Source: Ruminococcus sp. (lineage in GTDB: Bacteria; Bacillota; Clostridia; Oscillospirales; Ruminococcaceae). Taken from it: a stretch of DNA of 33,079 bases. Position numbers and translations under genes: made by a program. Location: positions 1 to 33,079 of the forward strand of contig JAFXDK010000013.1 in assembly GCA_017521805.1 (NCBI GenBank), written 5' to 3'. Below the pieces are notes generated by a model, which was given only the letters and a program-made list of their open reading frames with translations, had not been told where the DNA came from and made no database searches. Positions 3,005 to 31,330 of this stretch are shown here, piece by piece. The first letter of the stretch is position 1. Every line of letters begins with the position of its first letter.

Positions 3005-3042
3005 ATTCAACGCTCCTTTTTATACAGATTTCATTTAATATT

Positions 3043-3071
3043 ATTTTAACACAAATCCTAAACATAGTCAA
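3043..3071 (-). promoter_or_regulatory. Promoter of the helical protein gene
   Basis: TTGACT (3066-3071), 17 bp spacer, TAAAAT (3043-3048), reading leftward, about 40 bp before the chosen start codon. Confidence 0.6.
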
Positions 3072-3163
3072 TATTTGTTTATAGTTTTGTAAGTTTTTTG
3101 GTAATATGCACAAAAAACATGATGAAAATTCTATATTATAAAAAAATTAATTTTATTTATTTT

Positions 3164-3192
3164 AAGACTATTTAAAGGAAATATGATATAAT
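3164..3192 (+). promoter_or_regulatory. Possible promoter of the two-component operon
   Basis: A perfect -10 (TATAAT, 3187-3192) with a weak -35 (AAGACT, 3164-3169) at 17 bp. A poor -35 would fit a promoter that needs an activator, but that is inference. Confidence 0.45.
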
Positions 3193-3236
3193 ATAGGTAG
3201 AATACCGTAATATGTCGGTTTTATTCGGAGGATTAT

Positions 3237-3905
3237 ATGAAAATACTTGTTATTGAAGATGAAATCCAGCTTGCCGACGCATTATGCGAGCTGCTGAAAA
3301 GAAATATGTATTCCGTTGATGTCTCATACGACGGCATAAACGGACTTGATAACGCTCTAACAGGGCTGTACGACTGTATTCTTCTTGATATCATGCTTCC
3401 AGGAATGAACGGGATTGATGTTCTTAAAAATATCCGCAAAGAGCGCATAAGCACTCCCATACTTCTCCTTACAGCAAGAAGTGAAGTCAGCGATAAAATT
3501 GCAGGTCTGGACTGCGGTGCCGACGATTACCTCACAAAGCCATTTGTAACAGGAGAATTACTTGCCCGTGTCCGTGCGCTTACACGAAGAAAAGGTGAAA
3601 TTGTGGACGAAAACCGCCTTGAATTCAAAGAACTCAGCCTTAATAAAAACACCTGTTCCATAAGCTGCGGCGGAAATGAAGTAAAACTCAGCCTTAAAGA
3701 ATACAACGTTATGGAAATGCTTATTGCAAATCCCGGACAGATTCTGCCGAAAGAACGTATTATTGAAAAAATCTGGGGTAGCGAAAGCGATGTAGAATAC
3801 AACAACATTGAAGTATACATATCATTCCTGCGCAAGAAAATATCCTCTGTTTCTGCCGATGTCCAGATTAAGACAGCCCGCGGAATAGGCTATTTCATTG
3901 AATAG
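3237..3905 (+). CDS. OmpR/PhoB-family response regulator
   Basis: A 222-residue DNA-binding regulator, phosphorylated by the kinase encoded next to it. The receiver domain (about 1-115) has the acidic pair E8/D9, the phospho-acceptor D51 in LLDIMLPGMNG, the switch region LLLTAR around 77-81 and the conserved K101 in TKPF. The C-terminal half (about 128-222) is a winged helix of the OmpR type, with the family motifs LSLKEYNVMEMLIANPG and NIEVYISFLRKKI and ending RGIGYFIE. The ATG follows GGAGG closely. The stop is 11 bp from the kinase start, so the two are co-transcribed. By position, the pilus operon that converges on it is the obvious candidate target, but no binding site is proven. Confidence 0.95.
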   Translation: MKILVIEDEIQLADALCELLKRNMYSVDVSYDGINGLDNALTGLYDCILLDIMLPGMNGIDVLKNIRKERISTPILLLTARSEVSDKIAGLDCGADDYLTKPFVTGELLARVRALTRRKGEIVDENRLEFKELSLNKNTCSISCGGNEVKLSLKEYNVMEMLIANPGQILPKERIIEKIWGSESDVEYNNIEVYISFLRKKISSVSADVQIKTARGIGYFIE

Positions 3906-3916
3906 GAGGGATATCT

Positions 3917-5797
3917 TTGTTCAGAAAGGTACAGCTGAAATTTTTCGGAATCATCACAGCTATACTCATTGCAATATTCATCGGTGTTCTCAGCTCCATA
4001 AATATCATAATGGACGTTATCATGGAACGTCAGACAAAAGTTGTTCTGCAGCAGGTAGCGTCGGGGGTTGAATACAACAACAAAACCGAAACATTTTCAT
4101 TCAAGAATCCGAACAAGCAAAAGGAAGAACCCAGAAAAAGCAATAAACCGCCTGTAACCAAAGCTCCGATTCAGACAACCACACAGACGGAAACAACAAC
4201 GACTATTGTAAATATAACCGAGGCAAAATCTGTGGAAACAAGTATGGTTACAACAACTGTCCCTCCACAGACTGCTACTGAGGATCCGATTGAAATCCCT
4301 GTAACAGAAGCTCCTACAGAACCGCCAACAGAATTGCCGCGCACAGAGCTGGTCAAGCCGACAGAGCCTCCGCCTGTGGAAAAACCACCGCATAACGAAG
4401 GCGGTAATAACGGCGGCGGAGAAAATCAGCCTCCTCCGCAGGAACAGCCCACAGAGCCGAATCAATGGGAAAATCCGTGGGGTAATCCATGGGAAAATCC
4501 GTGGGCAAATCCATGGGAAAATCCGTGGGGCAATCCATGGGGAAATCCGTGGGCAAATCCATGGTATAACTGGGGAAACAATGGAGATCAGTGGAATTGG
4601 GACGGTCAGAATCAAAACAATGCTCAGCAGCAGAGCTCATGGGGCGGAATAAATCCTGTAGCCAATACCATGTTTGTGCCTGTTCTCAACGAATATACCA
4701 TATCTGTAACAAACACAAAGCCAAAGTTCACAGAAAATTCTCCCCCTCATCCTACCGACCCACAGACCGCCGATGATTTCGTTGAGCCTGTTCCGAAATC
4801 CCTAGGCTCTATTGAATTTTTTGTTATCATGGCAGACAATGACGGCAAATTCACAGCTTCAGCAAACAACGACGGAATGTCTGTTGAACTTGCACAGGAG
4901 TACATAAACGAAATAATTAAAGACAACAATACCATAGGAATGACAAGAAATCACAGCTATTGCGCGGAAAAGAAGCCTAACGGCACTCTCATGGTGCTCA
5001 CCGACAGAACAGCTGAAATTGAAATGATGCGTAAACTCAAGCGTATTACCATTATTGTGGGAATAATCAGTATAATTTTCCTTTCAGTTGCAGCTTATTT
5101 CCTCAGCGGATTGATTGTTCAGCCTTTGAAAGATACCTTTGAAAAGCAGAAACAGTTTATTTCCGATGCAAGTCATGAGCTTAAAACTCCTCTTACTGTA
5201 ATTTCAACAAACGCAGATGTACTGTCAGGAGAAATAGGGAATAACAAATGGCTCAATTATATCCACGACCAGACAGACAGAATGAACGTACTTGTAAACG
5301 ACCTGCTGAACCTTTCCAGACTTGAAAACAGCAATCGAGATTTTATTACAAGCGAATTCGACCTGAGCCGTGCAGTTACAAACGCCGCACTTCCCTTCGA
5401 ATGTCAAGCGTTTGAAAGCAAAAAGAATTTCGTCCTGAATATCGAGGAGGGTATCAGAATAACGGGCAGTGAGCAACATATCAAGCAGATGACAGGAATA
5501 TTCATAGACAATGCGCTGAAATATTCCAAGGACGGTGGAACAGTACGCGTCTCCCTCACCAAAGAAGAAAACAAGGCTGTACTTGTGGTATACAATACTG
5601 GAAGCGGAGTCCCTGAGGAAGATGTTGACAAACTGTTTGAACGTTTCTACCGAAGTGATGAATCCCGTGCCCGCACAACAGGCGGATATGGTCTCGGTCT
5701 TGCAATTGCTAAATCAATTATTGACAAGCACAAATTCAAAATTCAAGTAGAAAATCAAGAGGGCAGAAGCATCAGCTTTGTTGTAACTATGCAATAA
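3917..5797 (+). CDS. Membrane sensor histidine kinase with Trp-rich NPW repeats
   Basis: A 626-residue sensor kinase starting at TTG 3917, six bases after AGGAGGG. Transmembrane helix 1 is about 8-30 and helix 2 about 376-398. Between them lies an outer domain of roughly 345 residues: a Pro/Thr/Glu-rich stretch (about 55-175), eight tandem NPWx units (186-216), a Trp/Asn/Gln-rich tail and a small folded part around 290-370. Inside the cell are the H box SHELKTP with H420, the N box IDNALKYS (about 530), and the G box GGYGLGLAIA (about 588). All key kinase residues are present. The outer domain is far larger and more aromatic than in ordinary OmpR-partner kinases and is the likely ligand-sensing part. 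A Trp-rich surface suits polysaccharide or cell-wall binding; that is inference. Confidence 0.95.
   Translation: MFRKVQLKFFGIITAILIAIFIGVLSSINIIMDVIMERQTKVVLQQVASGVEYNNKTETFSFKNPNKQKEEPRKSNKPPVTKAPIQTTTQTETTTTIVNITEAKSVETSMVTTTVPPQTATEDPIEIPVTEAPTEPPTELPRTELVKPTEPPPVEKPPHNEGGNNGGGENQPPPQEQPTEPNQWENPWGNPWENPWANPWENPWGNPWGNPWANPWYNWGNNGDQWNWDGQNQNNAQQQSSWGGINPVANTMFVPVLNEYTISVTNTKPKFTENSPPHPTDPQTADDFVEPVPKSLGSIEFFVIMADNDGKFTASANNDGMSVELAQEYINEIIKDNNTIGMTRNHSYCAEKKPNGTLMVLTDRTAEIEMMRKLKRITIIVGIISIIFLSVAAYFLSGLIVQPLKDTFEKQKQFISDASHELKTPLTVISTNADVLSGEIGNNKWLNYIHDQTDRMNVLVNDLLNLSRLENSNRDFITSEFDLSRAVTNAALPFECQAFESKKNFVLNIEEGIRITGSEQHIKQMTGIFIDNALKYSKDGGTVRVSLTKEENKAVLVVYNTGSGVPEEDVDKLFERFYRSDESRARTTGGYGLGLAIAKSIIDKHKFKIQVENQEGRSISFVVTMQ
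4472..4564 (+). repeat. 12-bp tandem repeat encoding (NPWx)8
   Basis: Eight 12-bp units in frame, each encoding NPW plus one of E, G, A or Y. The Trp-adjacent codon alternates CCGTGG and CCATGG, so the real unit appears to be 24 bp, suggesting expansion by slippage or unequal exchange. Confidence 0.9.
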
Positions 5798-5866: not shown

Positions 5867-6508
5867 TTATTCAATTTCAACCGCCCGAACAGTAACCCTG
5901 CTTTGACCGCTGAGAGTACAGGTAAACAGCGTCATATCCCAAGAATCAGCAGAACCGAAATCCATACCGTTAATGTCCCTGCCGTCAAGCTGGATAATTT
6001 CGGTGATTTCATATGTGTGTATTCTGCCGTCCGCCTCTGTAAATGTAAATATTTCTCCGCCTCCCAGTTCAGATAATCTGCCGAAATGAGACCAGTAATT
6101 ATGTGCCGCAATGATAACATCTCCATCTGCAACACTTCCCTTGTATCTGCAAGGCGAAACATCAAGATTTACGTAGCTCCATTCGCTCATGACAGGAAGA
6201 TTCAGTTCCAGAGCAGGAATTGAAACGATTCCTATATATCCCTTTTCAGCAATAGATATAGTAGGCTCAACTTTTGCTTCTGTAACAGGCTCGATGTCAT
6301 ATTCTGCGAGAATATCACTGCCTGTTATAGCTTCGGTAGCCGGTTCAGTAGGCGATGGAGGGATAATCTCCATAAGTTCATTAAGCACTGATTGTGCCGC
6401 TTCACCGCTCTTTTTATTCTCATTTTTATTGTATAAAACGAGGGACAGCGCCGCAATAAGCAGAGCTGTCCCCAGAACTACACAAAATAATCCGTGTTTT
6501 TTATTCAT
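5867..6508 (-). CDS. Small sortase, probably the pilus-to-wall anchoring transpeptidase
   Basis: A 213-residue membrane-bound sortase. An N-terminal membrane helix (about 6-26) is followed by a Pro/Thr linker and the sortase barrel (about 88-213). The catalytic His136 lies in AAHN, Cys197 in TLFTC and Arg204 in GQSRVTVR. It lacks the second, C-terminal membrane helix and the lid segment of class C polymerases, so it is not a second polymerase by shape. It resembles class D/E or housekeeping-like enzymes; I cannot fix the class by eye. Its ATG overlaps the end of the upstream pilin gene by 8 bp (ATGAATAA), so translation is probably coupled. As the last gene of the operon, beside the Thr-rich basal pilin, it is a good candidate for linking the finished pilus to peptidoglycan. 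Confidence 0.9.
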   Translation of the reverse strand: MNKKHGLFCVVLGTALLIAALSLVLYNKNENKKSGEAAQSVLNELMEIIPPSPTEPATEAITGSDILAEYDIEPVTEAKVEPTISIAEKGYIGIVSIPALELNLPVMSEWSYVNLDVSPCRYKGSVADGDVIIAAHNYWSHFGRLSELGGGEIFTFTEADGRIHTYEITEIIQLDGRDINGMDFGSADSWDMTLFTCTLSGQSRVTVRAVEIE

Positions 6509-7637
6509 CTTCGTCCCTCTTTGAGCCGCTGATTATTCTTGTACCTGCCGCAATAAGAACCAGACCGCCTATTGCCATTACAGGCACAGGCCACCATAAT
6601 TGTCCTGTCTGCGGAAGCTTCTTTGATGTAGTTGTTGTTTTTGGGGAAGTTTTTTTAGTTGTTACAGCTGTTGTAGCCGTAGTTGATGATGTAGTTGTAT
6701 CAGTTGCAGAGCTTGATTCAGAGGTACTTGTAGCCTCGTCACCGCCAATCTGATAGCTAACTGTTGTAGTTGTATTAGTATCTGTAGTAGTAGTTGTTGT
6801 TGTGGTGGTTGTGTTCGGAGGAGGGAAATTTGCCTCCCAATCGAATTCAAATCCGGGAACATATGTGTTTACAACGATATAATTCACACCGTCATTCTTG
6901 TAAACAATACAGCAACCCTCGGGGATTTTACGTTCAATAACTGTCCATTTAACACCCGCTTTATCGCTCCATTCGTAATTCCAATTGTTAGTCTCGGAAA
7001 GACGTACCGTTTCATAGAATTTGTAATCGCGGTAAATATCAATAACAATTTCGTTGGGCTTGCGTGGGAGATTCTCATCATTTTCCCAGATTTTCTGGAC
7101 GTTGAATTTTTGAACGCCGTCTGAATCCGCAGCTGTTGGCATAATTTTTGTATATATCGTCATTTCAGATTCTTTCTCAGCGTTCATGACAACAATAGAG
7201 GAAGTCGGAATATACGTTGTTTCTCCGTCTACGTAGTTCTTGGCGGCAATAAGATACAGACCGTCCTCCAGATTCTTGAAAGTAATAGTGCCATCATTTT
7301 TGGAGTTTCCGCTTCCTGCTGATTTAAGCTTGAATGTAAAAGCATAATCAGTTAAAGTTGAAGCGGCATCTGCAAGCCCTGAGGCTGTGAGGTCGCTCAT
7401 ATCAACGGGATATTTTGCAAAATCTCCTTGAAGGGTTATTTTTTCGCCGTCAAAAGTACCGATACGGAAAATTTCCCAACGCATACCCTTAACAGGCTGT
7501 CCTTTCACCTCGTTGATAAGAGTGATTGTTCCGTCGGATTTAGCCGTTGCGGTTGTACAAAGACAGCTCAGACATAGCAGTAAAGCCATTCCCAAGACTA
7601 TTAAAGCTGAGCCGACTTTTTTGCTTATTTCTGTCAT
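6501..7637 (-). CDS. Minor/basal-type pilin with Thr-rich stalk and LPQTG anchor
   Basis: A 378-residue secreted wall-anchored protein. It has a signal peptide (about 5-32) and an N-terminal prealbumin-like domain (about 36-165). A Cna-B domain follows (about 177-262) with a complete isopeptide set: K182 in VQKIW, E235 in TVIERK and N257 in VVNTY. A Thr-rich stretch (about 272-340) then leads to LPQTG (341-345), a membrane helix and an RDEDE tail. A Thr/Pro-rich tail next to the sorting signal is typical of basal pilins that cross the wall. The ATG at 7637 is chosen for its GGAGG at 7644-7648; a longer frame upstream has no such site. It starts 1 nt after the class C sortase gene ends. Confidence 0.9.
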   Translation of the reverse strand: MTEISKKVGSALIVLGMALLLCLSCLCTTATAKSDGTITLINEVKGQPVKGMRWEIFRIGTFDGEKITLQGDFAKYPVDMSDLTASGLADAASTLTDYAFTFKLKSAGSGNSKNDGTITFKNLEDGLYLIAAKNYVDGETTYIPTSSIVVMNAEKESEMTIYTKIMPTAADSDGVQKFNVQKIWENDENLPRKPNEIVIDIYRDYKFYETVRLSETNNWNYEWSDKAGVKWTVIERKIPEGCCIVYKNDGVNYIVVNTYVPGFEFDWEANFPPPNTTTTTTTTTTDTNTTTTVSYQIGGDEATSTSESSSATDTTTSSTTATTAVTTKKTSPKTTTTSKKLPQTGQLWWPVPVMAIGGLVLIAAGTRIISGSKRDEDE

Positions 7638-7638
7638 C

Positions 7639-8520
7639 TTAAACCTCCCTTCCTGCCAGCACCAGACGTGAGGCAATTTCTCTCGGTGATTTTGTTTTGC
7701 GCTTGCCGCCGAATACCCATACACAAACAAGAATCAGTACAAAAGGTGCACAGATAAAAGGTATAACAAGCATGGGGTCAATTTTTACCATTTCAGCAAC
7801 AACTCTGTACTCTTTCTTGTATACCGTTTCGATACGGTGTGAACGGATAAGAAGTCGATGCGTATTAACACCGTAAGGTGTACAAGTCATAAGTGTTACA
7901 TAATCGCTGTTAGGGATAATTGAAAGCGTGTTCATTTCGTGAGGCTCTACAATAAGTATTTCCTCAACTTCATAGGTATATATACGGTCGAGGATATTAA
8001 TTGTAAAAACATCGCCTTTTTCAATTCTGTCAAGGTCTGTGAAAAGTCTTGCTGAGGGCAATCCTCTGTGCGCCGAAATAACAGAATGTGTATTCGCTCC
8101 GCCGACGGGGAGAGACGAACCCTCCAGATGTCCTGCGGCGATATTCAGAACCTCCTCGCTTGTGCCGTGATATATCGGGAGTTCTACCTGTATAACGGGG
8201 ATTGAGATATATCCCATAATTCCCGTACCCGACACATTGAGCGCTGTTTCATAGCCTGAAATTTTGCTGTAATTCACAAATGGCGATTCAAGCCTTGCAA
8301 TTTTCTCGTTGTACTCGTTTGCCTTGGCAATTAACTTGTCTGTTCTGTCTGTGTCCATTTTTGCAACTGCCACTTCATAATTGGCAACTGCTCGGCTTTG
8401 CACCTTGGAATTCCACCAATCGCTTACGATAGGGTAAAGCATCACGGAGACTCCCACGAACAGCATTAATGTAAAAAATATTGTTGCAAATAAGCTTGAT
8501 TTATTGATTTTTTTCTTCAT
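7639..8520 (-). CDS. srtC: Class C sortase (pilin polymerase)
   Basis: A 293-residue enzyme that joins pilins by cleaving their LPXTG signals and linking the Thr to a Lys of the next subunit. It has the class C layout: an N-terminal membrane helix (about 10-30), the sortase barrel, and a C-terminal membrane helix (about 250-270) with a basic tail. The family motifs are clear: LPIYHGTSEEVLNIAAGHL, SLPVGGANTHSVISAHRGLP with His151, and TLMTCTPYGVNTHRLLIR with Cys213 and Arg222. The lid that usually covers the active site carries Asp-Pro-aromatic; here the matching segment reads Ser79-Pro80-Phe81, so the lid Asp appears replaced. GGGAGGA precedes the ATG, and a strong hairpin lies just upstream. 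Confidence 0.95.
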   Translation of the reverse strand: MKKKINKSSLFATIFFTLMLFVGVSVMLYPIVSDWWNSKVQSRAVANYEVAVAKMDTDRTDKLIAKANEYNEKIARLESPFVNYSKISGYETALNVSGTGIMGYISIPVIQVELPIYHGTSEEVLNIAAGHLEGSSLPVGGANTHSVISAHRGLPSARLFTDLDRIEKGDVFTINILDRIYTYEVEEILIVEPHEMNTLSIIPNSDYVTLMTCTPYGVNTHRLLIRSHRIETVYKKEYRVVAEMVKIDPMLVIPFICAPFVLILVCVWVFGGKRKTKSPREIASRLVLAGREV

Positions 8521-8627: not shown

Positions 8628-10310
8628 TTATTCCTCAGACTTCTTCATTCTTCTCTTGGAAATGAGGTATACGCCGCCGATAGCTGCCATTGCGCCACCG
8701 CCAAGGTAGAAGATTGTTGTACCGATACCACCGGTACCGGGGAGAACTGAACCCTTATTATTTTCAATTATTACAGAGTTGCTCGCATTAGCATTCTCAT
8801 TTGTACCCTGTGTAATTGAAGCAGTTAATGCAGTTAAATCAGTACCAACGGTATCATAAGTTGCTGTTAATTTATTAATTACTACATCAGGACATTTATT
8901 ATATTCAGCAGAAGGTGTTGCAATTTCCTTTATTACATATTTCTGATCATCATCTAATCCTAAGATTCTAAATGTAGCTAATCTACCCTCTGTAGTAGAA
9001 GTAGTGATTACGGTTATCTTATCTTCATCTGCATCATCTGCTGTGGCAATACGATAATAATCAATACCGCCTGCTGTTCCTGCTGATACAAGACTCATAG
9101 CAGTTTCACTATCACCTTCATACAAACTAAACTTAGCACCAGCAAGAGCAGGTTTATCAGCAAGACTACCGTCTACCTTACTTGCATCAAATGTATATGT
9201 CCAATCGTAAACAGTATCTTCCTCAGTATCATTTGTAGAGTGAGTATTTCCGCTTCCACTCTGGTTTGGATTATTAGAGTATGTCAGGTAAGCTGTATTA
9301 TCATTATGCTTATCATCATCAGCACCTGATGAAACCTCAGCTCCTCCATTCAAAACAGCTGAATAGTATGTATAAATTGTACCGCCTGCCGCAAGGTTTA
9401 AGGATTTAAGGTCAAAATTAATGTAGAAATCTTCTACAAAATCAACTGTAGATGAATCATCAGCCGCTGTTATTGTAATATTTGACGGTGTTCCTGTTCC
9501 GTCCCAAAGTGTAGTTGCAGTAGAACCAGCTGTTGCAGGCTGATATTCAATCTTAGTTACTCCAGAATAAGTGAGACCAGCTTCCATATCATCACGAATG
9601 ATATACTTATAAGTGTCATAATCACTTATATCCGGAACTGTTGTTGCGATATAATATTCAACAGTATCACCAATCTGGTTGTCGCCAACGTCTCCCCATT
9701 CGTCAGTTTCATTATGCTTAATCTTCTTTACAAGTGAAGGAGCATCAGTTTTAATTTCAACTGTTTCATCATCAGTTACTTTAAGAATGAATCTTGTCTT
9801 AGCGTCACCAGAATCAGTACCGGAATTTTCGGCATCCTTAACGAAATAGTAACCTGTAGCAAGATTTTCAATCACTCCATTACTTGATGTAGCAGGCGCT
9901 GCATCATCCACTGGTTTAAGTGAGTCATTTACAATTTTAGCAAGAAGCTTAGCATTATCAGCAGCAGTAATATCTGCCAATACTTCAGCAACTGCAGCAG
10001 CGGATGCGCCATCTGCAATTGACGATATACCTAAATCGGTTGCATTAAATTGGAGATTGTTAATAAACACACTTGAATTGATGTTGGAACCCCAAGTTAT
10101 GTTGGTAAGTGTGTTTGTTTTTTCATCCAAATCGCCTTTAAAAATCTGATATGCTTCAAATGTGTGACTTGCAAAAGGTATACTTGCATCACCCTTAGTA
10201 ATTGTAATATTAGCAGCTGATGAAACAGCTGGCATAACAGCACAAGCTGCTAAAAGTGAAGCGGAAGTGATGGCTGCGAATCTCTTAAAAGTTCTGTTAG
10301 TTTTTTTCAT
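8628..10310 (-). CDS. Major (backbone) pilin, SpaH/EbpB-like, LPGTG
   Basis: A 560-residue shaft subunit. The signal peptide is about 1-33 (cleavage near SSA/A). An N-terminal domain follows to about 185. The backbone middle domain starts with APSLVKKIKH, where fimbrial isopeptide domains carry their linking lysine, and continues with IGDTVEYYIATTVPD, a common family stretch. A Cna-B/SpaA domain closes the chain, with an E-box-like segment YVIKEIATPSAEY at about 450-462. The LPGTG signal is at 523-527, then a membrane helix and a KRRMKKSEE tail. A canonical YPK pilin motif is not evident; the lysines in LVKKIK are the best candidates. AAAGGAG precedes the ATG. The order tip, backbone, polymerase matches known pilus islands. 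Confidence 0.93.
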   Translation of the reverse strand: MKKTNRTFKRFAAITSASLLAACAVMPAVSSAANITITKGDASIPFASHTFEAYQIFKGDLDEKTNTLTNITWGSNINSSVFINNLQFNATDLGISSIADGASAAAVAEVLADITAADNAKLLAKIVNDSLKPVDDAAPATSSNGVIENLATGYYFVKDAENSGTDSGDAKTRFILKVTDDETVEIKTDAPSLVKKIKHNETDEWGDVGDNQIGDTVEYYIATTVPDISDYDTYKYIIRDDMEAGLTYSGVTKIEYQPATAGSTATTLWDGTGTPSNITITAADDSSTVDFVEDFYINFDLKSLNLAAGGTIYTYYSAVLNGGAEVSSGADDDKHNDNTAYLTYSNNPNQSGSGNTHSTNDTEEDTVYDWTYTFDASKVDGSLADKPALAGAKFSLYEGDSETAMSLVSAGTAGGIDYYRIATADDADEDKITVITTSTTEGRLATFRILGLDDDQKYVIKEIATPSAEYNKCPDVVINKLTATYDTVGTDLTALTASITQGTNENANASNSVIIENNKGSVLPGTGGIGTTIFYLGGGAMAAIGGVYLISKRRMKKSEE

Positions 10311-10401: not shown

Positions 10402-13400
10402 TTATTCTTCACGACGTTTTCTCTCGCGTCGTTTAAGACCTGTGAACCCGGCTATACCCAGAAGCATTAACGCGCCTCCGAAGTAGTAGTATGTCTTTAC
10501 TCCGCTTCCGCCGGTGGATGGGAGTTGGCCTTGTGTTTCGGATACAAACTTGTTTCCGACTGTTGCTGTGTTTAAATCGCCTTCCTGAACTGGAACAATA
10601 CCGTTGTTGTAGTAAACATATGGCATATAAATTGTATTACCTGAGTTGATAAGGTATCCGCCTTCCTTCAACGGTTTATAATCATTTTCGCTCAGTTTGT
10701 AAGCAACTTCCTCGATGTAATAGTAATATGGATTACCCTTTGAATCATACATTGGAAGATCAGATATTTCCTTACTCCATTCATCAGCATTAGAGTTTGT
10801 TATTTCGATTATTCTGACTTCATCAAGGAACTTCTCATTTGGAAGATGAGGAACCTTTGGTCTTTCCTTTATCTGGATTGTAATAGTATCAGTAGAGTCC
10901 TTATAATCATCGGTTGCCCTTAATATGATTTCAGCGTCAACATTTTTTGTTACGAGTTTTTCTGTCTTTTTGTAGAATGTTGCGATTTCTTTTCCGTCAG
11001 ATGTTTTAAATTCTATTGTATACACATTATCGGCAACAGTTACGTCATCTGAATTTTCAGCAGACCATTCTATATTTCCGATTGTGTTGTTTACTGTGAA
11101 TACCTGACTGTCTGAATAATCCATAAATTCTTCGCCGTCGATTACAATTCCGTCCTTGACAGTTAATTTAATAATTTTGAACAACTTATTATCAACTGTA
11201 GCACGAATTTTAACTTCTCCAGGTACAAGTGCTTTAACTTTATATGTACCGTTGCTATAAGTTTCCGGCAATTCAACACTTCCACTTGGTTCTGCTGTTA
11301 ACTCTGTAATATTACATCCTACAGTATTGATTGTTAAGTCAAATTCTTCATTTACTCTTACATCACTTCTTTCAGGTATTAGATTTAACTCTCTTCCGTC
11401 AGTCTTGTATACAATATCAATGCTTGATAAAGTTACACTTGTTGTTGAATCATCAGACCACCAAATCTCAAAACTGTAGTAACCGTTCTCTTGACCTACA
11501 GGTATTTTATCAGCAAATGTTTCAGTATTCCATTGCAATGAACCGCTTCCTTGAATGTCACAATTAGTTTTACCACTACTTTTAATCTCGGTATCACCAT
11601 TATATATTACGTGAACAATCTGGTCGCTCTTCATATTTCCGCTCAAATTCGCTTTTATAAACTGAATTTCAGCATTTGACGGAATATCCATAAGATTGAA
11701 CTTATATTTACCTGTTCGACGTACCTTTTTATCAATTACAAAGTTTTTATGTTTATAATTTTCGCCAAGAACTTGAACTGTAAATGTAGCTGTTTTTCCC
11801 TCAGTATCAGTACCGACTATTGTGTATGTGTTAGCTGTGGTTCCGGCTTTCCAGTTTTTACCGGTTGAGTCAATACTAAAGTCTGCTTCTGTAATGTCAA
11901 TTAAAGTATTGTCTGATTTCTTAATTTTCCATGTAACATCACCTGTATTATTTAGGATATCAACTGTGAATTCTTCGCCTTGTTCTAAATAGTACTTTGA
12001 CGGAGTAAGTATCAGTGGAATTTGCCAGTGCACCACAATAGATGCTATTGACAGATTCTCAGAATACCATTGACCTAATTTAATGCTTGTAACATTAGTA
12101 TTCACAGATATATTACATGTAGTTGACTGATCAGTATTATATTGAGCTATATGATTATTGTTACCATTGATATATACGGGACCATTTCCTTTTCCGTTAA
12201 AGCTAATGGTAATTGAATCAACATATTTTTGTAATTCTACAGGAATTGATATTGGTATATCGGTATCAAAATTTAATCCAGTTGTAAATGGGATAGTACC
12301 AGATGTCTGACCATTCATTATGTCCTCATTAATGCTGATAGCTGTAGGATTGAAAGCGAAAGCTTTAGGATAAGTTTCAAGATTTTCAACGTCAACTGCT
12401 GCAGCACTTGGAGTACTTGTAATAACACCGTCAACTTCTGATTCATCACCATAAAGATTTGAATTAGGAGTACCTGTAAGTCCGTATGAACCATACTCAA
12501 CGCCCTCGATCATAGTTGAACGTGCGCCTGTACCATAGAAGTAGTACAAACCTGCCGCTGCACCAACAAGACCTGAGTTATAGTCGATTGCAACCTCGTT
12601 ACAACAATAGTCGTGGAGGTCATCAATGTAAACGTGAGCCGAAGTTGGATGATCGTGATTGTATTGTGCCATCTGAACCTGTTTAGACGGATCGTGAGCT
12701 GCAAATGCAGGACCGCCTGCCAATGCACCGATTAATGTATAGCCGTCTTCGTCATAGCCACAATTAAGTCTGTATTCTTCGTGTGTATCCCAGCCAGATG
12801 CTGCTCTGTGGTGAGCCGCCTGTGGTGTGTCAACGTCAAATCCTTCGGGTACAAAGTTTGTTACAAGACAAATTGGTTTGCCTGTTGTATCAATTGTACC
12901 GTTGTTACATTCGCCGTATGCACTTGAAGCAGTACTATTCTTTACAATTTCGTCTTTCCAATCGTTATCGCCGAGAAGCTGATTCATCTGACCTACTACC
13001 CATTCAAGATATGTATTCTTTTTATCAGAAACATGCTTTGCAGCTATCAGAGTTGCTGTCTGAGCCATTGCGTTGAATCGAGCTGTACCCCAGTCGTGAA
13101 CGTAATAGTAATCATTACCAATATATTTACTATCAATCCAAGCAGTAACTGTGCTCCAATCACCTGTGTCATAAGCTGTTGCCGCTGCTGCTGCAAGATA
13201 AACGCCGTCCCATTCAAGCTTCCCTGCTTCTGTTGTTCTTGCATCTAAGTATTTTTTCTTGTTATCTGTTGAATCTAAATCTGGATTGTTTCTTACTGAC
13301 TTTGCCTTATAAATCCAAGCTGCTGCTAAAGCCTTATCATCACCATCACCACTACCCTGAGGATAGAATGAGTTAGAATATGGGCCTGTGCCTTCTGCAA

Positions 13401-16400
13401 ATTCGTAAAGCTTTTCAGCAAGATTGAGATAATCTTCATCACCGAAATTCAAGTAGCCAAGAGCAAGAGCTGCTGCATATTCATAAGCTATATCACTTCC
13501 ATATTCGCTCCAGATCATAATTCTTGTATCTTCTGACTGATGTTCAGGTGCACACCACTCTACGTGGTCGCCTTCACCGTCGCCCTTTTGAACAAGAATC
13601 TTGGTAATCTTACCGTCATCGCCATACTCTACTGAATTTTCAAAGAATTCATAGAATCTTTTAAGAATCGTTTCGAGATGATTTGCTTCTTCGTTGTACA
13701 TCTTATAATACTGATCACTATTTTTATCAGCACCATTATCATCGTTAGTTGTTGTATTATCCTTAAAGAATTCAAGATAAATCCAGCTGAGCATTGAAGC
13801 TGTATAACCCTGCGGTAAACCAAACATTACGTGGTCGCCCGCATCGTGGTAGCCTCCGGGAACTTCATCTCCAACGTGACAATTTGTTCTCCAAGCTAAA
13901 GCACTGTTTTGGTATACATCATCGCCGCACATATTCGCGTCATAGAAGTAGAGTGAATGTTGTAATAATCTCTTGTAGTCGTCCTTGTAATCGTAAGTTG
14001 TTCCGCTGGTAATATTTTCGTCAGTATATGGTGCATCTGTTTCTGTGTAAGAAGGAGCAACTGATGAACGATACAATTGAAGCATTACTGAATATGGACG
14101 AGTTCCTGTTTCGCCGTCCCAATACTTCTGGAGCTTAAGACTGCCTTTGTCAACATTAAATGTGTTTTCAACTTCAAAACCGTTGCATTCAGTTTCTACA
14201 TTATCAACCATTTTATAAAGTGTTCCGTCAGTTTTAACCCCAACCTCTTGGGTAGGGTAAGTATCATCCCAACCGTAAGTAGTATTAACTTCAACTATGC
14301 GATACTCATAACCCTTTGGCAGACCTTTAAATTCGCCATAATATGTAACTGTTTTATTAGCATCATCTTCGGTACATCCCTTGCTTGTTAATGTAAGCGT
14401 CTTTCCGGGAAGGTCTGTCCAGTTTACTCCGTCAATTTTTGCCTGCAGCTTAACCTTAATTGAATTAGTTATGAATACATCGCTCTTATTATAGCCAGCA
14501 TAACTCCAAAGCTTTTGAATTGGAATATCTACTGTATCAGCTGTATTTGTTACTGTAATTGTACCGCCTTGGTTAAAGCTGAGAGGTACTTTCACGCCGT
14601 TTTCGTCTACTGTTTCAACTTCCGAGGTGTAACCGTTAGCTCCGTTTGCCTCTGCTACTGTGTAGTAGTACAATCCTTCGCTTTCGTTATCGTTGACATA
14701 CATTGGTAAGTTTTCCCAGATGTACTGCCAGTCGTTGGCCTCGGTTAATGTAGCTACTCCACCTGTAGGAGTTCCGTCAACAATATATGGATTACACTCT
14801 ATAAAGCCATTTGCATCAGCACCAGTTTCAGATTTTATGGTTCCGTCTGCATTAACTGTCTTACGTTTAAGCTGAATTGTTACTGTCTTTCTGAACTCTG
14901 TAATTCCTCTGTCCCCTGCCCACTTCTTTTCAACCTTAAGCTTCATAACATTGCCAATTTCTTTATTCTTAATTTTAATGTCATTTCCGCCAGGTGATAT
15001 AATAAGTGGTACATCGGGTGTTTCAGGTGTTTCGGGGGTTTCAGGTTCTTCGCTATTAGCTTCTACATTAATTTCCGCAGTTGCACTTACTTCTGGCTTA
15101 CCTTCTTTTGTAGCCTTTACAGTAATTGTAATCTTTCCATTCTGAACATATGATTCCAAAGCAGGAGAATTGTTAGTAAACTCGTTATTGTTTATATAGT
15201 ACTTTATAGTGTAATCACTTGTAGGTTGATTTTCAATGCTAAGATTAATATTTTCACCTATTTTAACAGTTTCAGGTGCAGTTAATTTCATTTCTAAAAC
15301 TGTCAGGGTAACGGATTGTGTTTCTTCGCTTCCGTTAGCTTTAGCTGTAATTACAAAATCACCTGCTTGTTTTGCTACGACTTTTGTATCACTATCAATT
15401 ATTTCAGCTGTGTCAGTATTGCGACTTGATGTAATAGAACCATTTTGAATAGTAAGATTTACTGTTTCACCAATACAAACTTCATAATCACTTAATGAAA
15501 TGCTTAATGCATCTTGAGAAGGTACAGTAACATTTGCATTTGCAATTACATCTGTATCGCCGTCCTTTGTAGCCTTAGCAGTAATTATGATTGTTTGACC
15601 TGCATAATCGCCGCTTACAGTAGAGTCAGAATTAATCTCTTGCTCACCTATATAATACTTTATGGTATATCCATTAGGTCGATTTGTTAAGTTGAGATTA
15701 AATTTGCTACCTACAGAAACAGTTTGATTTGTATTTTCAAAAGCCATTACGTTAACTGTTATTGCAGCGGTATCTTCTGCTATTACTGTATTGCTGCTGT
15801 TTAAAGCCTTTGCTGTAATTGTAATCGTTCCATTCTGAACATATGAGTTCAAAGCAGGAGTATTGTTAGAAATTTCGTTATTGTTTATATAGTACTTTAT
15901 AGTATAATTTTCTGTAGGTGGGTTTGTAATATTAGTACTAAGTTCAATATTATCACCTATTTCAACACTTCCCGGTGCATTTAAGGTTATTTTTGTTTCC
16001 GTGTCATCGCTTGACTCTTCGTAGTATACCTTAACAGAACTAAGTATAGCTCCCCATCCATTTACACTAAGAGTAGTTATATTATTCGCTGGGGTTTTGC
16101 CATTCCATACGCCATGGAAATTACCGTCAGATTTTGGAATTGAAACTAAAGTATTACCATCCCATGAACTTCCATCGCCACAACTCAAACCAGTACTTGT
16201 ATCACTAGCATTCGCAAAATATACACTTGTACTTCCTATTTTAATTTGACCATTTTGTTTGTCAAGAGCAAATTCTACTTTTGTTACATTTTTACCTTGC
16301 AGTAATGATGCCACATTTGCATCCTGCCCGTTCTTAATCTTATTAAATAATTCACTATTATTATTTGCATCAAATACAACTACCTTTTCTACTCCCTTAA

Positions 16401-19400
16401 CATTTACATTGCCAATTGAGTTAAGAGATACATCCGCCAACACTCTGATACCTGTCTGCTTCATAGCAAAAGCCATAAGAGAAGTAATACCTTTGGTAAC
16501 ATTAGTCGTATCAAGTTCATCTACAGAAGCTGTAGCTGCTGCACTAATCGGAGATGTACTATCAGCCTCAGCAGAAATATGATATACACGGTTTCCATTT
16601 ACAGGACAATATGGTGCATTACCATCATATCCATCTGGTGAATCGCCCCATATTTTCTCGCCTTTGGAATTGACAATCTTTATTTTATCTTCGCCGCTTG
16701 TTTGTCCTTCTTTATATACTGCCTCAATTGAAATAGCTACTACGCCTTTTGTTTGTTCAGGAAGTTGGATATAATGATTATAGTCAGCAACATGTTCTGT
16801 TATTGTTGGATTTTCAATAATCGAAGTTTCACCATTAGCAAGATGGAAAGTCATTTTATTTACTTTATAATTTGTAGAATATTGATTATTACAGAACATT
16901 ACATTTTTTATAGTCTCTCCGCCCAGATTGACATAAGCTTCGAATGTACCGTCTGAATTCTCAATAACCTCAAAGTGTAATGGTGCCATCGCCGGCTCAT
17001 AACCTGTCGGAGCTGAAATTTCCTTAAGGTAATACTCTCCCGGTTTAAGATATCCGTTTTCAATATATCTCGGATTATAAACCTTGTAAGGCTCTTGACT
17101 GAAATCCAATGTTACCTGTCCGCCTGTAACAACGAACTTGGATAAAATCTCTGTACCGTCAGCGGCATATAAGCTGAATACTGCGTCTTTTTCACCCGTA
17201 CCAACTGTAATTTTATTGCCGTTCATATCAGTCTTAGTGATAACTGGCTTAATACCTGGGATAGGTACATTTTTCATACGGATTATATTGCTGCTGCTTG
17301 TAGAGTCGATAACTTCATAACCAGTTGGATTTTCAGCAGATTTTTTATTTGCAGGTTTTGTGCTGCTTCCTGTCCAGTAATGAACTGTATTATTATCCAC
17401 CTTTACCATGTAGATATCATCCGCACGCTCGTATAAACCGCCTGTATTGGATTCATGGAATGTGTAGATAGCACCTACATCTAATTGATTAAACTCTAAA
17501 ATCCACTCACTTGTTGTGCCTTTTAACCAATTCCAAATGCTTGTATCTACAGAAGTTCCATTCTTTAGAAGATCAATTTGTACATCCTTTACAGCTGCAC
17601 CGTTATCATTAACCTTTCTGAAAAGTATACCCTTTGTATTAGCAAATGTTATGTGAGTTTCAGGTACACTAACAATCATCTTTGAAGAGGGGTCGAAACA
17701 ATATTTCTTTCCGCCATATTCAAATTCATGAATAGAGGATATGTTAGAAATTATTGCTGTACCACCAGCTTCAACAGTTACATTATTTTGTAAATCTGTT
17801 GTTACTGTAAATTCTGTTTCGCCAATTGTAACTATTCTTGTATATGGATCAACCTTTGTTTTGTTATTGTCATTTTCATCTACATATGTGCGATAAATCA
17901 CATCCATTTCAGTTTTAAAAATTGGAGTATCTATTTCGTTTTCTTTATATGCTTTGATTGTTGTTTTAACGTGTGCAGGATATGTGAGATAATTGTGTGT
18001 TACAACATCTTCAAGAAAAACAACCTCTGTTACTTCAACATAGATTTTATCTTCAGTCTTTTTGTAACCTGTAGGAGCCTGTAACTCTTCGATTGTATAA
18101 GTATTCTGAACAACTAATTTATCGCTTGCGATTCCACTTATATCAATTACTTGTGAAACATATTTGTTGATTACGTATTGGTTTACAACCAAGTCAGAGT
18201 TAATAGCTTGGATTTCAACCTTGCTGACATTTTCCAGATTATTGCCGTCAATCTTTACCTTACCGTCTTTATCGATTGCGACTTCTTTACCTGTATAATC
18301 AGCAATGGGAGCACCGTTGGTATCAATTAATGTGTACTTAACTCTACCACCTGAATAAACATCAAGTACAACGCTTTCAAGCTTTTCACCCCAGTTGCCA
18401 AGCTCTATTATTTTGCTTTCATTCTGAGCAAGCTTGAATCCAGAGCCTGAAGTCTTGGTAACCATAATGCCCTTGGTTCTTACTTTTGGGATATATGAAC
18501 CAATTTCTAACCAGCCTTCACTAACTATAACTTCGAACTTTGTTATAGGCTTCTTTTCAGCATTTTCAATATCAGCTACGTTAATGTCAATGTAATTTCT
18601 TGTTTGATTTTGATTATCACCAGTTGTGCTTTGAATTGTTTCACTTTGTACTGTATAACCTTTCTTAGTACCTATGAGTTCATCGCCTGAATAAAACTTA
18701 ACATCAACTACATATGCATCCTTTGAATACTGGTCTTTTGCATAATCACTAACAATGAGCTTAATACCGTCATATTCTTCGCTATCACTTAAATCACCAT
18801 TAATTATTAATGTATTTGTACTAAAAACAGATGCAGCTCGCTTTAATGACCTAAGTGCATATGATGTAACAATATTACTGTTAGTAAATGAGGAGTTCCA
18901 TTCGGTTTCGGCACCACCTGAAAGTCTAACATTTATGTAAAACTCAAAGTTGCCATTGCCGAGGGTTGTAGTATCAATAGTTATAAGCTGTCCTTCGAAT
19001 TTAATGTATTCATTACTGAGAATTTTCTCCGTATTTGAAGAAAGATCTTTAACCCGGAATTCCAACACAGTACCAACTGATTGATCACCTATTTTTGCTA
19101 ATTGGATTGCGTGAATTCCATTTCCTTTATTATTAGGGAAAATGGAGAATTCAGCATTGATTTTTGCGGTTTTCCTTGCTATTTCCGCACCGGTTTTTTC
19201 TCTGAATACATAAGTGATATCGCCAACGCCTTGTGGTGTAAAGCTTGCTGTTGTTCCAGTACCACTTGCAAGTGTATTGGACTCAAAATAGTAGTAAACA
19301 ATCCATTCTACATCATTAGGATTTGCATCTGTATTAAGGTTTGCTGTAATATTGTTACCTGGTAAGAACGTACCAGCAAAGGTAATAGTACCTGTATGGG

Positions 19401-22400
19401 TACTTGGTCCGCTGACCACTTCCCTTGGTTTAACTGTTACCCAATGATTTGATAATACTGTTTGTTCAGCATTGTTATCGAATTTTATTGTAACTTTTAC
19501 TTCATATGTTCCTTCGGTCTGAGGATAGAATGTCACTTCCTGAGTTCCACTACCCCATGCTGTTTTCGTTTCTTTTCTATTGTCATAGAATGTAACATCT
19601 GCCCTATAACCATTCGGAAGGTCCGGTATAGTTACCTTGAACTCTTTTCCGATTTCACATTCAGTAGCACTTACAGAAGGTGAAATTTGCTTATATTTAC
19701 CTGTTATAATACTTTGCCCTGTATTGTTATAATTGAAATAGATATTTTTTGTAAGTCCGTTATTAGAAATAACTGCATATACAGGAATAGTGCCTATGAG
19801 CTTAGCGTTATTATAAGTATAAGTGGCTTTATATGAATTATTATCGAAATAAGAACTACTGTTGCCTACACAACCGTCATTATAATAATATTGAACATAT
19901 GTGTTTTCCGGTATATTGGTTAAAGTATAGATAATATCGTCATTATTGTCCACACCTACTACATATTCCGATGGTGTAACTGTTAATCCAATATTTTCAG
20001 GGAAGTTTACTGTTACTGTATCATAAAGAGTCATCGTATGCATAGTACCATTATCACTTATTTCCACAACAGCTCTGACAGAAAGATCTTTTCCCACTAT
20101 ATTATTTGTTGAAAATTTTGCAGTAGTATCTTTATTATACTTTTGTCCCTCACTATTGTAGAAATAATATGTTACATTCGCATTTGTAATATTTTCTAAG
20201 CCTTTTACAGACATTTCTAAATCGTTACCTGAAATTACTGAATCAGGAACGTCAAAAGTCAATTCAGGCATTACAAAGTTTTTCTTTGTAACTGTTACAT
20301 TGTTTGATGCCTTAGCAATAAGACGAGGAGTACCGTTTTCAGTTTCTTCATAATAAGCCTCGGCAGTAATTGATAAAACACCTACGTGAGCGGAAGTAAC
20401 TCTGAAACCCTCTGCTGAATACTGTATTTCCTCGTTATTTATATAATACTTATAAGTTATCTTTTCATCACGTTCGGGTAAATTTAACAACTGATATGTA
20501 ATATCTTTAAAAGCATCAGCTCCGGAATCCAACTCAATCTCCGTTTCACTTACAGATAAAGCCATCGGTGTAAAGTTTACTTTCACACCACCACTCTCGG
20601 ATTTACTTGTTGCCACAGTTGAAGCATTAACTGTAAGTTCTGTAACATCAGTAGCATCAGTAATGGGCGAATTCAGATAAACTGTATATACATAATCTAC
20701 ATCTTCTCCGTCGACTTCGACTACCTGCGGATTATTGTCACAATAAATCTGAGGATTCTGTGCTATATTTACTTTCTGATTAGTTTTGATATAAAATTTT
20801 CCTAAAACAGGTATTGCATCCGTGCCAATAGCGTTTACACAATCTGCATCTGTATACGCTGCTATAGTAAGCGGAGCTTTAATCGTTTTGCCCACATCTT
20901 CAGGATCTTTATCTTCTACTATATTAGCTTCATTTTGCTCAACCTTTTCAGCTTGATAAAGAGTCTTACCTGTGAAGTCTACCTTGGAAGGAATAACAGC
21001 AAAGTCTGTTTTTTCACTACTCTCGAACAGGTTTAAAATCTTATCGCCTTCCTTAACTGCGAAAATCGCACCGGGAAGATGATTGTCCGCAGCGCCTGCT
21101 ACAACCTTATCAACAGGAACTTCATAACCTGCTGAAAGACCAAGAACGTCAACGCCGCCACGGTAAGGTCTGTAACCAAATTCAAGACCGCCTTCAAATG
21201 ACTTTGCAATCATAGCACCTGAAAGGTGTCCGGGACATCTTTGAGGTGATGTAACATCAGCATTAGGTGCAAGAATCGTACCGTTAAGATTACAGTTATT
21301 AGTAAAATTAATATTAGTTGCATTATAGAAATTATAAACGATATTTGATGAAAGCGGGTGGTTATTTGTAGAGTTATCTTCTCCACGCTTACTGATCTGA
21401 TGTTTTTCCTCATTCAACTCTTCATTAGAAGGTCTTACAAATGTTGTCATACCCTTAAGGGATATTGTTTCATCCTCACAGCTAATGATAATATTCAAAT
21501 CAAGTTCACTAATTGTTTCAACGCCCGGAGTATAATAATCATCATGGGCTATAACTCTATTAGGAGGAACAATGATTTCAACTCTATCAATAGTTGGCCA
21601 GCTCTCAAGTTTGAAATATGCTGTTTCAGCGTCGCCTATATCAGAAGCATCCAAAATAAGCACATTCGTATCATTGTTATTAATTTTTTTAGTGACAATG
21701 TTAACATTTTTAGCTTCCATTTCGCCAAGATTTTTTGCACGTGCTCTTACAGTATCAAAGGTCTTTTCAAGAATCGTGCTTACATCGTCATAAATATAAA
21801 ACTGTGAAAGCTCATTTACATTGCCTAAATAATCGTGATCTGTTTTGCTGCTGCATATTGCACAATTGCTGTCATAATACAAATGATTACAACTTGTACT
21901 GTATGGAACGTCCTTTGAAACTCCATCACCCATTGTTTCGTAATCTTCATCAAGGTGAAGTGAATCTTTAAGATTACCAACTACAAATCTCTTATATGCA
22001 CCTTCCTCAGGATACAGGAAAACATCGTATCCATTAACATGTCTTTTACCTTTATTACCTAAAACACCTGTTAAAGGAGGAGCCGCATTTAAATTTGATG
22101 AAGCACCTGTACCCATTGTACCAAGACGATAAACCTTACCGCCGATGATACCTGATGCAAAACCTGTTAAATCACCATATTCATCTGTCTGTGAAATAGG
22201 ATCGAAATGACCATAGTCACCTGCACCTACCTGATAGTTCCATTCACCTACTTCCGAATTACCATTGAAGATAAGGTCGCCGCCAACAAACATACGTCCT
22301 TCGGCGTCGGCATCATATGCAATAAAGTCACCCTCAATAAAAGCACAGAAGTCACTTGCGAAACCTAAGAAGAACTCTTTACTTGCCTTCTGCAGATTAG

Positions 22401-22911: not shown

Positions 22912-22961
22912 GGATATCACCTCTTTCCGAATTATTTTTGTTTGCTGCTTAATTTACTAAA

Positions 22962-23543
22962 TTAAAGTGGGCTTATAGCCTTAAAGGGCCATACCCTGAA
23001 AATCAGTCTGCCTATGATATATTCATCTGCTATACAGCCGACCATTGAAGTACGGCTGTCAACTGAAGTCGCGCGGTGGTCGCCCATTACGAAAATTCTG
23101 CTTTCAGGAACCTGATATGGTAAATCAATATCACATTCACCGAGTGCTTTTTCATCAATGTACGGTTCATCAAGTTCTTCACCGTTTACATAAACCGTAC
23201 CGTCCTCTGTGATGTCAACCCAATCGCCAGGGAGACCAATCACACGTTTAAGAAGAATCTTATTATTAAAATAAAATGCTATCATATCGCCATGCTTGTA
23301 ATTACTTCGTTTGTTGCATATTACAAGTTCATCATTATACAGTGTAGGCGTCATGCTTGTTCCTGTAACTCTCAGAACCGGCAAAAACAACATTGAAATC
23401 AGAACTGACATTGCCGCTACAACTATAAGTGAACTTACAGTTGTGATGATGGTTTTTCTGAAATTCTTTTTGTATCTCACCCGCTTCATTTCAGCATAGA
23501 ACTGATTAGCGGTAGGAAGGTCACGTTTTATTTCTTTTTCCAT
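22962..23543 (-). CDS. lepB: Signal peptidase I, pilus-operon copy
   Basis: A 193-residue membrane protease that removes signal peptides from exported proteins. A single membrane helix (about 32-54) leads into the S26 catalytic domain: GTSMTPTL with nucleophile Ser63, LLKRVIGLPGD with general-base Lys99, and GDHRATSVDSR near the C terminus. The Ser/Lys pair is that of ordinary bacterial enzymes, not the Ser/His pair of the SipW type. The start at ATG 23543 overlaps the upstream gene by 23 bp; GAGG is about 12 nt away, so coupling to the upstream gene probably drives it. Longer in-frame starts upstream lack a ribosome site. Pilus islands in streptococci also carry a dedicated signal peptidase, and here it directly precedes the tip adhesin gene. 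Confidence 0.93.
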   Translation of the reverse strand: MEKEIKRDLPTANQFYAEMKRVRYKKNFRKTIITTVSSLIVVAAMSVLISMLFLPVLRVTGTSMTPTLYNDELVICNKRSNYKHGDMIAFYFNNKILLKRVIGLPGDWVDITEDGTVYVNGEELDEPYIDEKALGECDIDLPYQVPESRIFVMGDHRATSVDSRTSMVGCIADEYIIGRLIFRVWPFKAISPL

Positions 23544-23823
23544 GCTTTTGTTTAACCTCATTATTTTGCTGAGTAGATATATTATTTTGTTCATCATCTG
23601 TTGAGTTTAACTGTACAGCCTCTCTTGCTCCGTCTCTTGCTGCGGACTTAACCGCTTTAATGATTCTTTTCAATTCATTCTCAGACAAACTCACTTTAGC
23701 ATTTTCAAGCTGAGTTATCAAAGATTCATTTTCTTTGTTAAGTTCCTCGATTTCTTTTTGCAGATAGTAGAGTATTTCAAGTAAATCGGCACGTTTTAAT
23801 TTTCTTATTTCTTTATCTGTCAT
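23521..23823 (-). CDS. Small coiled-coil protein, first gene of pilus operon
   Basis: A 100-residue hydrophilic protein of unknown function. The N-terminal region RKLKRADLLEILYYLQKEIE continues into a heptad-like coiled coil to about residue 45. A helical segment follows, KRIIKAVKSAARDGAREAV (about 53-71), and then a Gln/Asn-rich, basic tail. There is no signal peptide or membrane helix, so it is likely cytoplasmic. GGAG lies before ATG 23823, and the operon promoter is 56 bp upstream. It overlaps the signal peptidase start. Being first in the operon, it may be a regulator or assembly helper, but nothing in the sequence proves this. Confidence 0.8.
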   Translation of the reverse strand: MTDKEIRKLKRADLLEILYYLQKEIEELNKENESLITQLENAKVSLSENELKRIIKAVKSAARDGAREAVQLNSTDDEQNNISTQQNNEVKQKHGKRNKT

Positions 23824-31287: not shown

Positions 31288-31330
31288 AATACTCACTCCT
31301 TATTCAGAAATGAAGTAAAACTGCCTTATA

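Follow-up and report, generated by a model that had tools for sequence, protein, structure and literature searches.

The window analysed here is a stretch of 33,079 nucleotides from a gut bacterium, contig 91 of a Ruminococcus sp. draft genome of 2.54 Mb in 112 contigs, and it carries a six-gene block on the minus strand coding for signal peptidase I, a giant tip-pilin-like protein, a backbone pilin, a class C sortase, a minor pilin and a second sortase. From N to C terminus, the giant protein is made of a putative adhesive domain, a long stalk with SpaA domains, two uninterrupted Cna-B domains, the N-part of a further Cna-B domain, a glycoside hydrolase family 9 (GH9) domain, further modules spanning about 560 residues, the C-part of a Cna-B domain and an LPSTG sorting signal. 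Our sequence analysis confirms that the gene belongs to a sortase-pilus operon and that its GH9 domain is flanked by Cna-B parts that complement each other, and we infer that both parts close into one Cna-B fold.

The nested GH9 domain and its Cna-B frame

An earlier note on this DNA had described a complete GH9 domain between two Cna-B halves, with LPSTG after the second. All of its motifs were recovered: LKLQKYWDG at residues 2928-2936 (14113-14139) in the N-part; YHDAGDH (3024-3030), HHR (3370-3372) and NEVAIDYN (3441-3448) in the GH9 domain; SDLPMYD (4053-4059) and YYYYIEE (4065-4071) in the C-part; and LPSTG at 4133-4137. The match of the GH9 domain to PF00759 (194.9 bits, cut-off 27.7) covers profile positions 1-370 and 376-443 of 444, so the domain can be called complete. 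The insert between the Cna-B parts comprises 1,079 residues, and about half of it consists of modules other than GH9; the earlier description of the insert as a GH9 domain is thus correct as to the nesting and fails for some 560 residues.

The C-part of the window protein matches Pfam Cna_B (PF05738) with 25.6 bits (cut-off 22.3) over profile positions 38-77 of 87, and in a relative (L057) the N-part matches positions 3-32 of the same profile. We also built a Cna-B model from 46 uninterrupted domains of the same proteins, leaving out both split parts, and scored it on the N-sides as far as GH9 and on the last 200 residues ahead of the anchor, with the gap side untrimmed. Shuffles retained composition only (480 per N-side and 400 per C-side). 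The N-side of the window protein scored 14.1 bits against a shuffle maximum of 10.1, its match beginning at model position 3, and the C-side 18.2 bits against 11.5, so that the matches behind the earlier claim exceed chance by this measure. Among the 24 nested GH9 loci described below, 23 N-sides were above every shuffle, and all 24 begin at model positions 3-4 and end at 32-54; the same was true of 16 of the 20 C-sides available, which begin at 11-46 and end at 71-99. With motif-trimmed segments, 23 of 24 N-sides and 19 of 20 C-sides exceeded the shuffles, the parts lying at model positions 3-35 and mainly 36-99, borders that the trimming itself partly sets. The C-part signature was found in none of the 24 N-sides, and the KxW signature of the N-part in none of the 20 C-sides.

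Residues K2932, W2934, E4071 and N4123 are invariant in an alignment of nine rows. Across the larger set the Lys is present in 24/24 loci, the Glu in 20/20 and the terminal Asn in 20/20 complete tips; the counts for Lys and Glu are partly built in, because both residues belonged to the patterns that located the parts. K2932, E4071 and N4123 flank the insert and are the putative residues of an isopeptide triad. Furthermore, the insertion site corresponds to the most length-variable stretch of the 46 uninterrupted Cna-B domains (model positions 31-41, up to 41 residues, standard deviation 8.8). The window gene runs through 4,172 residues without a stop. An assembly artefact was considered and rejected, since the same layout is preserved in eight relatives that are 28-47% identical to the window protein across the nested region. 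In this respect the earlier note is borne out.

The active site of the window GH9 is intact, with D3026, D3029, H3370, R3372 and E3442 all in place; these are the two Asp of DAGD, the HxR pair and the Glu of NE, to which we assign the presumed catalytic roles. Equivalents of D3026, D3029 and R3372 are retained in 23/23 nested GH9 domains examined (L043 was left out of the comparison), the acid E3442 in 22/23, where L049 was counted by motif as its cut ends early, and the first His of HxR in 21/23, being F in genome G087 and Q in G072 by this alignment. This conservation in nearly all nested domains favours catalysis as their usual role. One nested domain, in G002 (L048, 9993-11645), matches GH9 profile positions 44-443 first and 1-41 after, and by this order is a circular permutation, unless the assembly is in error.

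No dockerin was found in the giant protein with Pfam and NCBIfam at E 0.01. In the modules after GH9, nothing exceeded a Pfam cut-off in the window protein, and nothing below E 0.4 was obtained against PDB sequences with phmmer of one 157-residue stretch and a profile of eight stretches. In relatives these modules have Big_2 matches (Pfam), and they may be carbohydrate-binding.

Distribution of the split domain and its cargo

We searched 125 genomes of the genus with residues 2950-4172 and with a profile of the N-junction (E up to 1e-40), counting as nested those loci whose junction matched from position 1-3 in a frame of over 1,200 residues. The N-junction profile identified 22 nested GH9 loci in 21 genomes; with the permuted GH9 of G002 the number becomes 23 loci in 22/125 genomes, about one in six, and one locus in another genus (G499) brings the total to 24, window included. 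The nested arrangement is thus more widespread than the earlier note had described. Four of the 24 proteins stop at contig edges ahead of the C-part (L041, L043, L047 and L100); in the 20 complete tips the C-part stands ahead of the anchor, and the inserts measure 573-1,314 residues. A 286-residue frame with the end of a GH9 domain and a C-part (L109, G123 contig 32) was not counted as a nested locus.

Wider samples, all partial and with few members of the genus, gave fewer cases. The N-junction profile found nested GH9 in 4/396 genomes of the family sample, three of the genus (G000, G068 and G041) and G499 outside it; a hit in G426, from position 5 and in an 816-residue frame with two stops, was left out of the count. 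In the order sample, at a strict E of 1e-44, nested GH9 was found only in the window's genome (1/394), and the phylum sample gave 2/398, the window's genome and G1208, the latter with a match confined to positions 52-127, which belong to GH9. Among named genomes, a scan returned 12 loci, the best nine of which (E <= 4e-13) are labelled Ruminococcus (six), Oscillospiraceae (two) and Lachnospira (one); two of the six Ruminococcus loci are contigs of one genome, and one is from R. flavefaciens.

In a GH9 tree, computed without L043 and L044 and with a shortened L049 row, all 22 nested rows cluster together, apart from the 54 rows of free GH9s (support 96/85; 97% of bootstraps), and the rows closest to them are free ruminococcal GH9s. 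The program flags long branches as unsure, six of them on nested rows (L046, L102, L050, L048, L105 and L100), which counts against this grouping, and for this reason a single origin of the nested GH9s is likely rather than proven.

A profile of the C-part found further giant tips in the genus, and 20 such loci without GH9 were fetched. By our reading, 13 of them have partial N-like and C-like matches around an insert ahead of the anchor; in L106 that insert is only short. Pfam recognizes GDSL/SGNH hydrolases in five of the tips, ahead of the terminal C-part in L108 and further inside the protein in L113, L118, L122 and L125, and a CBM_4_9 module in L120. Around the inner SGNH domains the model finds the C-part in L113, L118 and L122, with a weak match in L125, and the N-part in L122, again weakly in L125; L113 and L118 have just the KxW motif. 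An SGNH junction profile matched 7/125 genus genomes, four of which were sources of the profile.

These findings open a broader view, to which we give an even chance: split Cna-B domains of Ruminococcus tip pilins, chiefly those nearest the wall, would serve as a general slot for exchangeable cargo, and enzyme-bearing, covalently closed pili would be a second surface system beside the cellulosome. GH9 cellulase, SGNH esterase and carbohydrate-binding or immunoglobulin (Ig) modules would then occupy the hypervariable loop of a self-locking Ig domain, a slot that would tolerate even circularly permuted cargo such as that of G002.

The pilus operon and its genomic setting

Coordinates of the features are collected in the table. 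The start of the giant gene is a GTG at 22920 or a GTG at 22911; a possible ribosome site, AAGAGGTGAT, was spotted by eye ahead of the latter. The LPQTG minor pilin is probably the base pilin.

Features of the pilus operon and of the giant protein in the window
Feature	Position	Strand	Basis or remark
Second sortase	5867..6508	-	PF04203 49.8 bits, cut-off 26.6
Minor pilin, LPQTG, one Cna-B	6501..7730	-	pilus operon gene
Class C (pilus) sortase	7639..8520	-	NF033745 272.2 bits, cut-off 160
Backbone pilin, SpaH/EbpB-like, LPGTG	8628..10310	-	NF033902 91.9 bits (slightly below cut-off 95); TIGR04226 56 bits (cut-off 30)
Giant tip-pilin-like gene, 4,172 residues	10402..22920	-	single open frame, no internal stop
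LPSTG cell-wall sorting signal, residues 4133-4172	10405..10524	-	NCBIfam (TIGR01167 21.5 bits, cut-off 15.9); Pfam (19.5 bits, slightly below its 20)
Terminal Cna-B C-part, residues 4027-4125, with E4071 and N4123	10546..10842	-	Pfam, alignment, Cna-B model
Remainder of insert, modules without family	10855..12483	-	probably beta-sandwich or Ig-like
GH9 domain, residues about 2982-3466	12559..13977	-	Pfam; D3026, D3029, H3370, R3372, E3442
Terminal Cna-B N-part, residues 2926-2953, with K2932	14062..14145	-	alignment, Cna-B model
Uninterrupted Cna-B, residues 2796-2923	14152..14535	-	69.8 bits, model 1-94; domain itself in training set
Uninterrupted Cna-B, residues 2656-2795	14536..14955	-	71.6 bits, model 2-99; domain itself in training set
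SpaA prealbumin-like stalk domain, residues 1911-1989	16954..17190	-	Pfam
Putative N-terminal adhesive domain (pAdhesive_15 / choice_anch_A), residues 185-582	21175..22368	-	Pfam, NCBIfam
Signal peptidase I of pilus operon	22962..23597	-	Pfam, NCBIfam

The operon context recurs. When the operon genes of the window were compared by tblastn with 16 of the 23 other GH9-tip loci, the remainder having too little flank or lying outside the comparison, 14/16 had relatives of both the backbone pilin and the class C sortase, and 12/16 a relative of the signal peptidase. The window's class C sortase has a relative in 91/125 genus genomes (E up to 1e-50). Four cohesin matches over the cut-off in the window's genome (G000; contigs 104, 25 and 50) make it probable that a cellulosome coexists there with the sortase pilus.

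A sensor kinase gene on the plus strand (3917-5797) adjoins the pilus operon, and its product has a Trp-Pro-Asn repeat (NPWENPWGNPW...) in a probable extracellular part; a relative was found in 0/21 loci tested. Elsewhere in the window, a minus-strand gene (30136-31296) codes for a protein with a match to a transglutaminase-related model below the cut-off, which ends, by eye, in two dockerin-like repeats. Rfam at its gathering thresholds gave zero matches within the window.

Interpretation and relation to known systems

The reading that we prefer, with a probability of roughly 0.74, is that the giant protein is the tip pilin of a sortase pilus in a cellulosome-coding Ruminococcus, with the GH9 domain nested in a split, isopeptide-locked last Cna-B domain and cutting glucan near the shaft. 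The first strands of this domain would be followed, in its hypervariable loop, by the insert with the GH9 beta-1,4-glucanase and the other modules, and then by the remaining strands and LPSTG. Both parts would fold as one domain with a Lys2932-Asn4123 isopeptide lock and Glu4071 as its putative catalyst, and the loop that carries the enzyme alongside the pilus shaft would thereby be covalently closed. LPSTG would probably be joined to the backbone pilin by the class C sortase. As the C terminus of the tip joins the shaft in sortase pili, the GH9 domain is expected where a long arm meets the shaft and would cut glucan there; the fibre would meanwhile be gripped by the adhesive domain, some 2,900 residues farther out. 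Incorporation of the giant protein into a pilus and its location at the tip are, like the activity and substrate of GH9, predictions of this reading. The suggestion in the earlier note that the catalytic domain takes the place of a binding domain was not upheld: the pAdhesive_15 domain is still at the N terminus (185-582), and GH9 lies in the wall-proximal last domain.

Several observations weigh against this proposal. The N-part of the window protein (70 residues) gave zero Pfam hits, scores of single parts are low, and in the untrimmed comparison L099 among the N-sides and L051, L050, L044 and L094 among the C-sides were not above their shuffles. Untrimmed sides also overlap in model positions (3-53 or 3-63 against 11-73 or 12-73 in the window), so the exact border of the Cna-B parts is not fixed. 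Such low scores and fuzzy borders would be expected if the two parts were remnants of two independently truncated Cna-B domains, with GH9 merely in tandem, a view that we rejected as very improbable. Each side lacks the signature of the other wherever this was tested; all nine aligned rows have the Lys on one side and the Glu and Asn on the other, and GH9 follows close behind the N-part, the segment from the N-part to GH9 measuring 31-73 residues. Furthermore, split terminal domains are also seen around other cargo, and in some of those tips the matches are strong. Of the 13 N-parts concerned, only six (L106, L113, L119, L122, L124 and L125) exceed the shuffle maximum of 7.0 bits from the motif-trimmed comparison; the other seven score 4.3-6.9 bits.

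Other alternatives accept the nested protein and differ as to its function. The GH9 domain might be mainly a glucan-binding head, an adhesin that retains the fold. The nested GH9 of G087 (L050, 9394-10836) has its acid Glu replaced by Gly and the His of HxR by Phe in an open frame, and Pfam still sees the fold over profile positions 1-443; it is probably a dead enzyme, so that catalysis has been dispensable at least once. Tip proteins with a nested von Willebrand A domain (vWA) are, moreover, adhesins (partial text of PMC7893114). Against this stands the retention of the two Asp and the Arg in every nested GH9 examined and of the Glu in all but one, across long branches, and we regard a mainly binding role as rather improbable. 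It is unlikely, too, that a housekeeping sortase attaches the protein to the wall as a single molecule, with no pilus at all. Wall-anchored glycoside hydrolases are known, and for 3 of the 18 GH9 tips whose downstream sequence reaches 2 kb or more no pilus genes were recognised there: tblastn found none of the window's operon genes at L102 (G006) and L105 (G072), and a motif scan of 2.3 kb downstream of L045 (G123) gave zero pilus genes. These three may be alternate tips or proteins attached singly to the wall. Against single anchoring, the tip gene is followed by relatives of the backbone pilin and of the class C sortase in 14 of the 16 other loci compared, as in the window, and alternate tips may sit apart from the pilus cluster: CafA, a tip pilin of A. 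oris, is unlinked to it yet assembled, the sorting signal determining its tip fate (partial text of PMC11389406). Finally, the substrate may be something other than cellulose, for example mixed-linkage glucan, xyloglucan or a bacterial polysaccharide. This possibility is doubtful, though a real one, since the sequence does not fix the substrate and NCBIfam made zero assignments in the GH9 part at E 0.01. Against it, the closest solved structures are the endoglucanase 2yik and the cellulase Cel9M (1ia6), and the closest tree rows are free ruminococcal GH9s.

The tip pilin with a nested GH9 suggests an undescribed way to display enzymes on covalently assembled fibres. If the proposal is true, a sortase pilus with a built-in GH9 adds a covalent, long-reach route for contact between cellulase and fibre; the nested-domain design of adhesive tips becomes one of enzyme display, in which natural cargo swaps show the tolerance of the loop, and which could be a scaffold for enzyme display. 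Earlier discussions of how ruminococci hold their cellulases against fibre invoke cellulosomes, CBM37, the glycocalyx and type IV pili (partial texts of PMC4300822 and PMC4081043). The portions of PMC4081043, PMC4300822 and PMC3672088 consulted deal with cellulosomes, CBM37, type IV pili and ScaE, and contain no sortase-pilus cellulase. In the open-access literature, judged by titles and the starts of abstracts among the matches listed, there was neither a glycoside hydrolase nested in Cna-B nor a GH9 in a sortase pilus. The earlier statement that no such pilus is described can stand to that extent; the window is not unique, as the 24 nested loci show.

Nesting as a design is already known from RrgA and GBS104 and from PilA of group B Streptococcus (GBS). 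In RrgA and GBS104 the stalk domains D1 and D2 are non-contiguous, with a vWA inserted between their parts (partial text of PMC7893114), and in GBS PilA a vWA is flanked by Cna-B domains (partial text of PMC2674936). Like RrgA and GBS104, the window protein is a pilus subunit with a functional domain inserted between parts of a stalk domain; their insert is the adhesive vWA, whereas in the window protein the last Cna-B ahead of the anchor is interrupted by an enzyme, and the putative adhesive domain is a separate one at the N terminus. PilB of Streptococcus sanguinis type IV pili has a vWA module grafted via a short loop onto a pilin and modelled at the fibre tip (partial text of PMC8179133), but the pilus type is unrelated and the module binds, being no enzyme. 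Sortase-anchored enzymes and ScaE-anchored Ruminococcus cellulosomes likewise bring a cellulase to the surface through a sortase signal, ScaE of R. flavefaciens being sortase-anchored (partial text of PMC4081043); unlike those cellulosomes, the window enzyme is nested within a Cna-B domain, and the protein, encoded in a pilus operon, carries no detected dockerin. Free ruminococcal GH9 enzymes are of the same GH9 type, with 39-50% identity in the rows listed, and four free rows that were compared share the active-site residues, but they stand alone, and in the window's genome at least three of the eight loci looked at have a dockerin-like repeat by motif match, in contrast to a GH9 that would be built into the pilus itself.

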